DNA of 54,981 nucleotides from an uncultured Opitutia bacterium (GTDB lineage Bacteria > Verrucomicrobiota > Verrucomicrobiia > Opitutales > Opitutaceae): contig CAIMFY010000047.1 of assembly GCA_903840415.1 (NCBI GenBank), forward strand, positions 1 through 54,981, given 5' to 3'. The position numbers were made by a program, and so were the translations under genes. Below, one piece after another: positions 30,484 through 39,894 of the stretch. Position 1 is the stretch's first letter. Each line of letters starts with the position of its first letter. The notes under the pieces were generated by a model. It was given only the letters and a program-made list of their open reading frames with translations. It was not told where the DNA came from and searched no databases.

Positions 30484-33225
30484 TCACGCCGAAAAGTCCT
30501 CGATCAGCCGCGCCACGAGCGCCGTCCAGCCGGTTTGGTGACTCGCGCCGAGCCCCTGCCCCGTCTCGCCGTGAAAATATTCGTGGAACCACACCAGCTC
30601 CTGCCAGTGCGGATCGCGCACGAAACGCGGCTCCATCCCCAGCGCCGGCCGACGTCCACCGCCGTTCGGCAGAAACAGCGTGACGAGCCGCCGCGACAGT
30701 TCCCGCGCGACCTGCGCCAAATTCATTTTGCACCCGCTGCCGGTCGGAAACTCCACGAGAAAACTCTCGCCATAGAAATGATGATACCGCTCAAGCGCCT
30801 CGATCAGCAGATAGTTCATCGGCAGCCACACCGGTCCGCGCCAGTTCGAATTTCCGCCAAACAACCCGCTATCGCTCTCGCCCGGCTCGTAGCCCACGCG
30901 CCACTCGCCCCCGCCCGCACGCAGCGTGTACGGCCGCTCGCGATGCGCCCGCGACAGCGAGCGCACCCCGTGCGCCGACAGAAACTCCGCCTCGTCGAGC
31001 ACGGTGCGCAGCACACGTTCGAGCCGCGCCCGCGACGGAATCGCGAGCAGGAATTTTCCGCAGCCACCCGAGCGACTTTCGAGATGCGAAATCGACGCCG
31101 CCAAATCTTTCCGGTTTTCCAGAAACCACCGCGTGCGCTTCGCAAAGCCCGGGAGCCTCGCCATCCGAGTCTCGTCAATCAGCTCGACCGCAAACAACGG
31201 CACGAGTCCGACCAGCGAGCGCAGCCGCAGCGGCACCGCGCGGTCGTCAATCAATAGCTGGTCGTAATAAAACCCGTCTTCCTCGTGCCACAGGCCGGTG
31301 CCGCCGAGCGTGTTCATCGCGTCGGCGATGGCGACGAAGTGCTCGAAGAATTTCGACGCGATGTCCTCGTAAGCCGGATCACCCTCCGCGAGTTCGAGCG
31401 CGATCGAGAGCATCGTGCCGCAGTAAAACGCCATCCATGCTGTGCCGTCCGCCTGTTCGAGCGTGCCGCCCGTCGGCAGCGGCTTCGAGCGATCGAACAC
31501 CCCGATATTGTCGAGTCCGAGAAACCCGCCGCTGAAAATATGGTTTCCCGCCGGATCCTTGCGGTTCACCCACCAGGTGAAGTTGAGCAGCAGTTTTTGA
31601 AACACCCGCGCGAGCCACGCCCGATCACGCCCGCCGCGCGCGCCGGTCAGTTTGTAAACGCGCCAGCATGCCCACGCGTGCACCGGCGGATTCACGTCGG
31701 AAAAATTCCACTCGTAGGCCGGGATCTTTCCGCTCGGGTGCATATACCATTCGCGCAACAGCAGATTGAGCTGCCCCTTCGCAAACACCGGATCGACGCG
31801 CGCCATCGGCACCATATGAAACGCCAAATCCCACGCCGCGAACCACGGATACTCCCACTTGTCCGGCATCGACAAGATGTCGCGCGCAAACACTTGCGGC
31901 CAATCCGCGTTGCGCCCCGCCCGCCGCACCGCCGGCGGCGCCGGCTGCCCCGGATCTCCGCCGAGCCAGTCGCGCACGACGAGGTGATAAAACTGCTTCG
32001 ACCAAATCAGCCCCGCATAGGCCTGCCGCGCCACCCGCCGCGCCTCCGCGCAGTCGATCCCACCGCGCAACTCCTTCCGCTCCGCGGCTGCGACCGGCGC
32101 CGGCGTCTCCAAGCGGCTCGCTCCGCCGAGGAGCGTCGCATAAAACGCGTCCGCCTCCGCGCGCCGCGCCACGATCGTCGCGGTGAAGCTCTCGCCGAAA
32201 CTCCGCGGCGGCTTTTCGTCCTCCGCGTAGAGCCGCAGTCGCAGCACGCGCTCCTCGCCCGGCGCCAGCACGATCGTGTGGTGCGCCGCACACTTTGTCC
32301 CGATGCGCGCCGGATTCACCGCTCCGCGCCGCCCGCCGACCACGCACTCGTGAAACGCATCTTTCGTGAACGCCGACGCATTCGTCGCGCCCGGGAAAAG
32401 CCGCGCCGCGTTCGTCTCGTTCTCCGTAAAAAGCAACGACGGCGCGAGCCCGTCGCCACCCTGCTCCGCGTCGATCTCGAAAAAATATTTCCCCAGCGAT
32501 GCATGATCGCACTGCACGGTTGAGTCACCCATCGCGCGCAGCACCGGCTTCGCCTCGCTGCCCGCGGGCTGGCCGGCCCACGACCACGTGTTGCGAAACC
32601 AGAGTGTCGGCAACACGTGCAACGTCGCCGGCGCCGACCCGCGGTTCGCCACCGTGATTTGAATGAGCACATCGTTCGGTCCCGCCTTCGCATATTCCGC
32701 GGTGACGTCAAAATAGTTTTCCCCGTCGAACACCCCTGAATCCAACAACTCAAACTCCGGTTCGCCGCGCCCGCGTCGGTGGTTTTCCGCGCGTAATTTT
32801 TCGTAGGGAAACTCCGCCTGCGGATATTTGTAAAGCGCGCGCAGCCACGACGCCGTCGGAGTCGCGTCCGTATAAAAATAACACTCCTTCACATCCTCGC
32901 CGTGATTGCCCTCCGGTCCGGTGAGTCCGAACAGCCGCTCCTTCAAAAACGGATCGCGCCCGTTCCAGAGCGCGAGCGCAAAACACAGCCGGCACTCCCG
33001 GTCGGTGAGGCCGAGGAGTCCGTCCTCGCCCCAGCGGTAGGCGCGTGCCTGCGCATCCTCATGGGTGAAATAAGCCCATGGCTCGCCCGCCGCCGAATAA
33101 TCCTCGCGCACCGTGCCCCACTGTCGCTCCGCTAGATACGGTCCCCACCGCGTCCAGTTTTTTTCGCGCCGCGCATCCTCGGCGAGACGCTGGTGCTCGG
33201 GAGTGTTCGTGACGGGTTTCGGCAT
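30484..33225 (-). CDS. GH63-like glycoside hydrolase (glucosidase family)
   Basis: A 913-residue protein without a signal peptide. The N-terminal half is a beta-sandwich region (about 60-400) and the C-terminal half (about 430-900) an (alpha/alpha)6 barrel with FAAWDLAFHMVPMARVDP, carrying the likely acid Asp, and HGETGQGLGASHQTGWTA, carrying the likely base Glu, as in the GH63/mannosylglycerate hydrolase-like group. Such enzymes release glucose or mannose from short oligosaccharides or glycosides. The start at ATG 33225 matches the family N-terminus (EHQRLAEDARREKNW). It lies 10 bases after the FemAB-like gene, which ties it to the lipid/amino operon; no leader peptide means it acts in the cytosol. 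Confidence 0.87.
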   Translation of the reverse strand: MPKPVTNTPEHQRLAEDARREKNWTRWGPYLAERQWGTVREDYSAAGEPWAYFTHEDAQARAYRWGEDGLLGLTDRECRLCFALALWNGRDPFLKERLFGLTGPEGNHGEDVKECYFYTDATPTASWLRALYKYPQAEFPYEKLRAENHRRGRGEPEFELLDSGVFDGENYFDVTAEYAKAGPNDVLIQITVANRGSAPATLHVLPTLWFRNTWSWAGQPAGSEAKPVLRAMGDSTVQCDHASLGKYFFEIDAEQGGDGLAPSLLFTENETNAARLFPGATNASAFTKDAFHECVVGGRRGAVNPARIGTKCAAHHTIVLAPGEERVLRLRLYAEDEKPPRSFGESFTATIVARRAEADAFYATLLGGASRLETPAPVAAAERKELRGGIDCAEARRVARQAYAGLIWSKQFYHLVVRDWLGGDPGQPAPPAVRRAGRNADWPQVFARDILSMPDKWEYPWFAAWDLAFHMVPMARVDPVFAKGQLNLLLREWYMHPSGKIPAYEWNFSDVNPPVHAWACWRVYKLTGARGGRDRAWLARVFQKLLLNFTWWVNRKDPAGNHIFSGGFLGLDNIGVFDRSKPLPTGGTLEQADGTAWMAFYCGTMLSIALELAEGDPAYEDIASKFFEHFVAIADAMNTLGGTGLWHEEDGFYYDQLLIDDRAVPLRLRSLVGLVPLFAVELIDETRMARLPGFAKRTRWFLENRKDLAASISHLESRSGGCGKFLLAIPSRARLERVLRTVLDEAEFLSAHGVRSLSRAHRERPYTLRAGGGEWRVGYEPGESDSGLFGGNSNWRGPVWLPMNYLLIEALERYHHFYGESFLVEFPTGSGCKMNLAQVARELSRRLVTLFLPNGGGRRPALGMEPRFVRDPHWQELVWFHEYFHGETGQGLGASHQTGWTALVARLIEDFSA

Positions 33226-33235
33226 GAGTCTGCCG

Positions 33236-39510: not shown

Positions 39511-39522
39511 GGCAGGCACCGT

Positions 39523-39894
39523 TCAAGCCGCCGTCGTTGCACGGTTCTTTACCTGAGTCCGAATATAACCGAGCAATTCGTCGAGCGTCGATAAGCGCGC
39601 GAGTTGGGAGTCGTCGATTTTGATGTCGAGCAACGATTCCGCCATGAACACCGTGTCCATCATCGTGAGCGAATCGCAGCCTAAATCTTCCACCAGCCGG
39701 GTCGTGCCAGGCAAGGTGTCGAGCGGTTCACTCGTTTTCTTGGCCAAATAAAAGTGCAGCACACCGAGCACCACGATATCAAGGCTGGCCACATCGCCGT
39801 GCTCGGCGAACGCGAGATAAGCCTCCGTCACCCGCGGCGGAAAGCCGACGAGTGATTCGTTGATGCGTTTTTGAGCGAGAGCGACAGTGATCAT
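39523..39894 (-). CDS. Acyl carrier protein-like protein with N-terminal extension
   Basis: A 123-residue protein. The attachment motif LGCDSLTMMDTVF carries the Ser that would hold phosphopantetheine, followed by helices typical of ACP (LSTLDELLGYIRTQV). The 45-50 residues in front (RINESLVGFPPRVTEAYLAF) are an extra helical segment absent from AcpP. The first gene of the block, it is preceded by a 148-base gap. It differs from a housekeeping ACP in length and in the Cys next to the DSL motif. It is the likely carrier for the ketosynthase. Confidence 0.88.
   Translation of the reverse strand: MITVALAQKRINESLVGFPPRVTEAYLAFAEHGDVASLDIVVLGVLHFYLAKKTSEPLDTLPGTTRLVEDLGCDSLTMMDTVFMAESLLDIKIDDSQLARLSTLDELLGYIRTQVKNRATTAA

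Follow-up and report, generated by a model that had tools for sequence, protein, structure and literature searches.

The window analyzed here, a 54,981-nucleotide stretch of contig CAIMFY010000047.1 (GenBank assembly GCA_903840415.1) from an uncultured Opitutia bacterium, carries on its minus strand, from position 39894 down to 30484, nine consecutive open reading frames (ORFs) that all begin with ATG and contain no internal stop. They encode, in order, an acyl carrier protein (ACP), a ketosynthase (KS), an alpha/beta hydrolase (ABH), a HAD phosphatase (HAD), an aminotransferase (AT), two small EamA membrane proteins (EamA1 and EamA2), a double-GNAT acyltransferase (NAT) and a glycosidase (GH) (Table 1). 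We place about half of our confidence in the reading that the first eight genes form an operon for an unnamed aminolipid or N-acyl amide. From ACP to GH the gaps between consecutive genes are 12, 37, -8, -17, 26, -4, 1 and 10 bases, AT overlapping HAD by 17 nt, which confirms the coordinates and the spacing of -17 to 37 bases given in an initial annotation made from the letters of the window. Searches against Pfam (E ≤ 0.01) and NCBIfam likewise agree with the families first assigned to ACP, KS, the hydrolase, HAD, the aminotransferase, both EamA proteins and the glycosidase. The same-strand gene upstream of ACP ends 148 bases before it. A promoter scan returned 2 sites against 1.7 expected, a number that tells nothing about transcription, and neither an Rfam search nor a PADLOC run on five of the nine proteins yielded anything of use.

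Conservation of the gene set and its glycosidase neighbor

The complete set of eight, ACP through NAT, stands in the window order at two further loci (L019 and L007) and with EamA-EamA-NAT inverted at two more (L020 and L021); a fifth locus, L008, has the set without ACP and KS. The gene set itself is uncommon. An AT match at E ≤ 1e-60 was found in 5 of 57 genomes (the window's own and its relatives), one of the five being merely 36% identical, and this AT is carried by four: the window's own, G001, G022 and G018. Among 387 genomes drawn from the phylum, matches at E ≤ 1e-140 occur in two, the window's own and G022. The operon is therefore rare and patchy. We also considered that the genes merely happen to share a strand, as their shuffled order between groups and the inversion at L020 and L021 would allow. 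However, the eight genes stand together in five genomes, the window included, despite the scarcity of AT in the phylum, and other phyla have most of them too, differently arranged. Because the same eight genes occur at L019, L007, L020 and L021, we do not take the grouping to be chance, an explanation that we consider highly improbable.

The ninth gene behaves differently. Of the 38 genomes searched, own included, 14 carry the glycosidase, and ten of these fourteen have no AT match; in each of the three remaining carriers of the operon it lies on a separate contig, although the genomes compared are drafts and a contig break could mask a link in G001. Different genes, not GH, follow or flank the set at L007 and L008. 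Taken together, its distribution, its placement on separate contigs and these flanks lead us to read the glycosidase as a bystander, and on comparative grounds we judge the eight genes from ACP to NAT to be the conserved unit, with GH adjacent to it. The initial proposal that all nine genes are one unit is thus supported for eight of them but not for the glycosidase, which is distributed largely independently of the operon.

Table 1. Positions of the nine operon genes, of the related locus in the same genome and of two further features of the window
Feature	Sequence	Position	Strand	Description
ACP	window	39523..39894	-	acyl carrier protein with N-terminal extension, 123 aa; PF00550 28.9 bits
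KS	window	38239..39510	-	FabF-type ketosynthase, 423 aa; PF00109/PF02801
ABH	window	37326..38201	-	alpha/beta hydrolase, 291 aa; PF12146
HAD	window	36656..37333	-	MtnX-like HAD-IB phosphatase, 225 aa; TIGR01489 83.8 bits
AT	window	35260..36672	-	class III PLP aminotransferase, 470 aa; PF00202 261.4 bits; used as family marker
EamA1	window	34820..35233	-	small EamA/SMR-like membrane protein, 137 aa; PF00892 32.8 bits
EamA2	window	34443..34823	-	second small EamA/SMR-like membrane protein, 126 aa; PF00892 39.4 bits
NAT	window	33236..34441	-	FemAB-like double-GNAT acyltransferase, 401 aa; assigned from structure model and homologues
GH	window	30484..33225	-	MGH1/GH63-like glycosidase, 913 aa; PF22422 and PF03200
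L115	contig C40, own genome	3019-4215		serine-palmitoyltransferase homologue
L115	contig C40, own genome	8600-9862		KS
L115	contig C40, own genome	10037-11026		ACP-bearing ORF
tRNA-Phe (gaa)	window	46871-46946	+	
ORF	window	27587-29830		adenylate cyclase-like catalytic domain at the end, behind a membrane region (read by eye)

The phosphatase-aminotransferase core and its modules

When 84,980 species genomes were scanned with the AT alignment, at least 592 pattern matches and at least 579 confirmed relatives were obtained, of which the best 80 loci were kept. HAD was found at 75 of these 80, and at all five loci without it AT begins no more than 75 bases from a contig edge. Where HAD is present, it lies upstream of AT on the same strand in 71 of 75 cases and within 100 bases of AT in 71 of 75, two sets that overlap but are not identical; L065, L067, L071, L077, L079 and L084 are excepted from one or the other rule. 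At the full loci, by which we mean the 37 with more than 8 kb on both sides of AT, HAD is within 300 bp of AT without exception. Comparison of these neighborhoods shows the predicted HAD-AT pair to be a near-fixed core of the gene set.

The core is widely spread. A tree of AT built by a quick method (89 rows, leaving out the duplicates L006 and L045 as well as L016-L018) covers nine phyla, as named in the record titles: Omnitrophota (39 rows), Acidobacteriota (19), Pseudomonadota (9), Verrucomicrobiota (6) and, with one row each, Nitrospirota, Gemmatimonadota, Chlamydiota, Thermodesulfobacteriota and Myxococcota, with 11 rows having no group. The window AT falls within Opitutae, neighboring two Omnitrophota rows. 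Plasmid records were matched as well, 35 in all; 34 carry AT at 56.7-59.5% identity (Rhizobium 16, Agrobacterium 10, Bartonella 5, and one each from Sinorhizobium, Phyllobacterium and Xanthomonas), and the 35th, from Ilyobacter, is 30.5% identical.

Around this core, we counted genes within 8 kb of AT at the full loci, using labels from single-pass phmmer, by which distant members may be missed. Two seeds of the NAT label were DegT proteins, and rows marked with both labels are counted as DegT; the PaaK-like and GT28 families were chosen from unlabelled neighbors under a first, superseded labelling. A first set of iterated profiles was dropped as evidence, its NAT profile having drawn in histidine kinases and DegT aminotransferases. 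Of the lipid-building and transport genes, ABH is present at 25 full loci, EamA at 18, KS at 16, ACP at 15 and NAT at 13. The further labels were DegT (13), an arginase-like gene (12), a PaaK-like ligase (7), GT28 (7), response regulator (RR, 16) and histidine kinase (HK, 12). At the seven PaaK loci ABH, NAT, EamA and the arginase-like gene are all absent, and all occurrences of these four fall among the thirty non-PaaK full loci, where PaaK and GT28 are never found. Two modules are thus mutually exclusive around HAD-AT in the full loci: ABH/NAT/EamA, or a PaaK-like ligase with a glycosyltransferase. Over the best 80 loci PaaK is labelled at 22, mostly from Acidobacteriota but in part from Omnitrophota (L040, L054, L059, L075, L080 and L086). 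In this second architecture, as seen in the Acidobacteriota loci among L071-L096, ACP, KS, an MGDG-synthase-like GT28, the PaaK-like ligase, HAD and AT occur together, and a gene with the response regulator label frequently lies upstream of them.

The arginase-like gene (carried, for example, at L010, L012, L041 and L068) encodes a divergent arginase-family protein. All three such proteins scanned match PF00491, although one of them falls short of the cut-off that the other two exceed, and in the seven sequences looked at we recognize motifs that we take to be those of a binuclear metal site. It was not found in the window's genome or in three kin carriers, by a search that had no positive control.

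These neighborhoods bear on a reading in which these enzymes would produce, in place of a membrane lipid, an exported signal or antibiotic: an N-acyl amide that is small and diffusible. The RR and HK labels near many full loci would suit it, as would the 34 AT plasmids and the TolC, ABC-ATPase and periplasmic-adaptor genes that adjoin the set in the Xanthomonas sacchari and Agrobacterium fabrum records. On the other hand, the seven full loci with a PaaK-like ligase and an MGDG-synthase-like GT28 suit a lipid, and the nine window genes include neither an ABC nor a TolC exporter gene. We regard a diffusible product as unlikely, while granting it a modest share of our confidence.

Predicted amine, acyl chain, joining and transport

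HAD exceeds the TIGR01489 cut-off of 81.55 bits and so belongs to the MtnX-like HAD-IB superfamily. Its structure model (pLDDT 92.4) is closest to Bacillus subtilis MtnX (2fea; Z 26.2, rmsd 2.0, 214 aligned), the next entry having Z 19.9. The methionine-salvage phosphatase MtnX was nevertheless rejected as its identity, as HAD misses the equivalog cut-offs (TIGR03333, 56.7 of 303.2; PRK09552, 70.2 of 292). MtnX takes its name from a hydroxy-keto-methylthiopentenyl phosphate, a phosphorylated keto compound. AT, far above the PF00202 cut-off of 30.5 bits, is a class III aminotransferase whose nearest PDB entries are amino-acid racemases and GABA-type enzymes. In class III enzymes acting on alpha-amino acids an Arg binds the alpha-carboxylate. 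The AT residue that aligns with this Arg of the racemases is Thr439, invariant in 10 of 10 rows, and the residue expected of an alpha-amino-acid enzyme is therefore missing; 3n5m, named 8-amino-7-oxononanoate aminotransferase, likewise has Thr at that position. The invariant Thr in place of Arg makes it likely that AT acts on a substrate other than an ordinary alpha-amino acid.

We propose that a small phosphorylated carbonyl compound would be converted to an amine by HAD and AT, one working after the other. Of the initial suggestion of an amine from a phosphorylated precursor, comparison supports the pairing of the two genes, which are seldom parted; the chemistry is our inference. Phosphoethanolamine catabolism was considered for the pair and set aside, because its relatives (PF06888 for HAD, 6tor at 4.6e-43 for AT) match at the superfamily level only. 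A route of the proposed kind has been described for RtxA, where dihydroxyacetone phosphate is converted to serinol phosphate and then to serinol (PMC3222319). Aminotransfer and dephosphorylation of a phosphorylated ketone there yield an amino alcohol, but RtxA is a single two-domain protein. Serinol as the amine of this operon is a guess.

The residues expected of a FabF-type KS with its carrier protein are present. The ACP phosphopantetheine serine (Ser88, 136-aa ORF numbering) is conserved in 24 of 24 aligned rows, and the KS triad (426-aa ORF numbering) in 30 of 31 for Cys178 and in all 31 for His316 and His353. At the nucleophile position of ABH (133 of the 318-aa ORF) 50 rows, two duplicate pairs included, hold Ser in 44, Cys in 5 and a gap in 1. 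An AMP-binding ligase, ACP and ABH are fused in one protein in 3 of 3 such proteins scanned, from two Legionella loci and one gammaproteobacterial locus (L079:12031-15063, L067:12137-15253 and L077:12003-15005), the fused gene standing beside HAD. This fusion ties ABH to a carrier-bound acyl chain. From the fusion and the neighboring genes, ACP and KS may carry and elongate an acyl chain dedicated to this product, on which, while ACP-bound, ABH may act as a thioesterase or acyltransferase; the comparison thus bears out the carrier-bound chain first proposed.

The genome of the window has six KS matches. The closest paralogue of the window KS (55% identity), on contig C40, adjoins an ACP-bearing 329-aa ORF that is 30% identical to the window ACP over 107 aa. 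A serine-palmitoyltransferase homologue (3a2b, 6.7e-95) lies 4.4 kb away from this KS, and glycosyltransferase-like genes surround them. The homologue scores 392 of the 640 bits of the curated equivalog cut-off, so that its name rests on homology; we consider the locus (L115, Table 1) likely to be of sphingolipid type. A KS matching that of C40 at E ≤ 1e-110 occurs in 62 of the 76 genomes searched within this order. Of 20 pieces around C40-type KSs, taken near the top of the match list, 13 contained the serine-palmitoyltransferase homologue, versus 1 of 19 around other, mostly less similar KS copies. Fourteen KS genes closer to the window KS lie without HAD-AT, five of them with a further KS-like protein and five with a further ACP. 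A tree of 30 KSs, which leaves out seven long-branched rows (KS rows of L046, L086 and L094 and the own paralogues L109 and L110), placed the window group with the C40 KS, and a topology in which the 27 cluster KSs form one clade that excludes three own paralogues is 221 log units worse and is rejected by the AU test (p 3e-55). From this we conclude that HAD-AT was probably joined by KS/ACP pairs on more than one occasion.

NAT itself matched nothing in Pfam or NCBIfam, a comparison with PHROGs led nowhere and a PDB sequence search gave two weak matches; 3 of 3 homologues scanned match PF04339 (FemAB_like). Its model (pLDDT 89.3) has the double-GNAT fold of FemX, MprF and N-myristoyltransferase, so the acyltransferase call of the initial annotation, without support in the family databases, finds it in the predicted structure. 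The best matches are Sba18 (Z 21.1), Sbb17 (20.9), FemX (20.4), FemA (19.1) and MprF (18.9), with those of the FemX/MprF type spanning Z 17.3-21.1 over 260-299 residues. NAT could accordingly be read as an aminoacyl-tRNA-dependent transferase, like FemX or MprF and the Sba18 and Sbb17 peptide synthases, which would add an amino acid to an amine-bearing lipid whose lipid part KS, ACP and ABH make. Yet N-myristoyltransferases, which use fatty acyl chains, share the double fold at Z 16-17 (17.1 for the best), and KS and ACP stand near 16 and 15 full loci, in addition to the three loci with the AMP-ligase-ACP fusion. As aminoacyl and fatty-acyl donors both occur in this fold, the fold leaves the donor of NAT undecided; an aminoacyl donor seems to us rather improbable, and under the reading we prefer NAT would move the acyl chain onto the amine.

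Both EamA proteins resemble the ArnE/ArnF flippase, which also consists of two adjacent small EamA proteins, but they reach at most about half of the curated scores: the best NCBIfam model of EamA1 is ArnF (47.2, cut-off 99; ArnE 29.0, cut-off 92), and EamA2 scores 46.4 against ArnF and 42.6 against ArnE. Membership in ArnE/ArnF was therefore rejected, and "ArnE/ArnF-like" describes a resemblance. From their family, the two proteins may pair up and flip or export the product. The initial idea of a joining enzyme with ArnE/ArnF-like transport is thus matched by candidate genes that would fit, the EamA pair scoring well below true ArnE/ArnF. The resemblance would also suit an envelope-glycan modification, in which an amino sugar on a polyprenyl carrier is flipped in the Arn manner and the glycosidase takes part, and a DegT-type (sugar-type) aminotransferase does stand near 13 full loci. 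With the ArnE/ArnF cut-offs missed, the nine window genes lacking both glycosyltransferase and DegT families, and the glycosidase distributed independently of the operon, we hold this decidedly unlikely.

A candidate pathway among known systems

In the open-access literature searched, we found no named pathway with these genes, in agreement with the initial annotation; cluster databases were not compared. The mode of working resembles that of known aminolipid pathways, and the gene tests for each named pathway tested failed. The ornithine/glutamine lipid pathway (OlsBA/GlsBA) combines an OlsB-type GNAT (PF13444) with a PlsC-type O-acyltransferase (PF01553). As there, an N-acyltransferase would couple an acyl chain to an amine, but here the amine seemingly comes from a dedicated phosphatase-aminotransferase pair, and neither family occurs in any of the nine proteins (E ≤ 0.01). 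The bacterial sphingolipid pathway shares a dedicated ACP and, as proposed here, an N-acyl amide product, and the window KS has its paralogue near a serine-palmitoyltransferase homologue in the same genome; in place of an alpha-oxoamine synthase, however, the operon has a class III aminotransferase and HAD, and no serine palmitoyltransferase is among the nine proteins. Aryl polyene and type II PKS clusters contain a second KS (chain-length factor), a dehydratase and a ketoreductase, whereas the nine proteins include one KS and no dehydratase or ketoreductase Pfam family. NAT shares the fold of FemX, MprF and N-myristoyltransferase over ~260-300 residues at 7-14% identity, and the Arn pathway differs in its DegT-type aminotransferase and glycosyltransferase.

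Several observations weigh against an aminolipid or N-acyl amide pathway. Its enzyme steps and its product are deduced from the genes. The nearest folds of NAT are aminoacyl-tRNA-dependent enzymes, so that NAT may not use a fatty acyl chain. NAT is unlabelled at 24 of the 37 full loci and EamA at 19, and joining and transport may therefore be optional or done elsewhere; one full locus has no accessory gene at all, and six have one kind (ABH 4, EamA 1, KS 1). In Bartonella, the one copy examined has AT, a GNAT and an arginase-like gene, with no HAD nearby. Long branches persist in the KS tree, whose tested group was defined once an earlier tree had been seen. In favor of the pathway, the sequence distances of AT track those of HAD (r 0.88, n 82), ABH (0.84, 50), ACP (0.83, 27), KS (0.74, 30) and NAT (0.72, 33), in each case with 0 of 1000 permutations as high (L006, L045, L016-L018 and L009 left out); these correlations, having no housekeeping control, partly reflect common ancestry.

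Overall, the earlier interpretation is partly supported. A bolder version would see an undescribed lipid class across nine phyla, in which HAD-AT makes an amino-polyol backbone (for example, serinol from dihydroxyacetone phosphate) that is N-acylated by NAT, O-acylated by ABH from carrier-bound chains, flipped by EamA and, in the PaaK/GT28 version, glycosylated. We think it improbable that all of this holds; if it does, the product would be the nitrogen counterpart of a glycerolipid and would mimic ceramide, with no serine palmitoyltransferase needed to make it.

The nearly constant phosphatase-aminotransferase core, around which modules for lipid building are exchanged, points to a widespread, unnamed amine-bearing lipid or amide. 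Carriers of the core include Omnitrophota, Acidobacteriota, Opitutae, rhizobial plasmids and Legionella, and the AT sequence provides a ready marker for genome mining. The aminolipid or N-acyl amide reading would give a shared purpose to plasmid operons that are annotated just as "aminotransferase", "EamA" and "GNAT".

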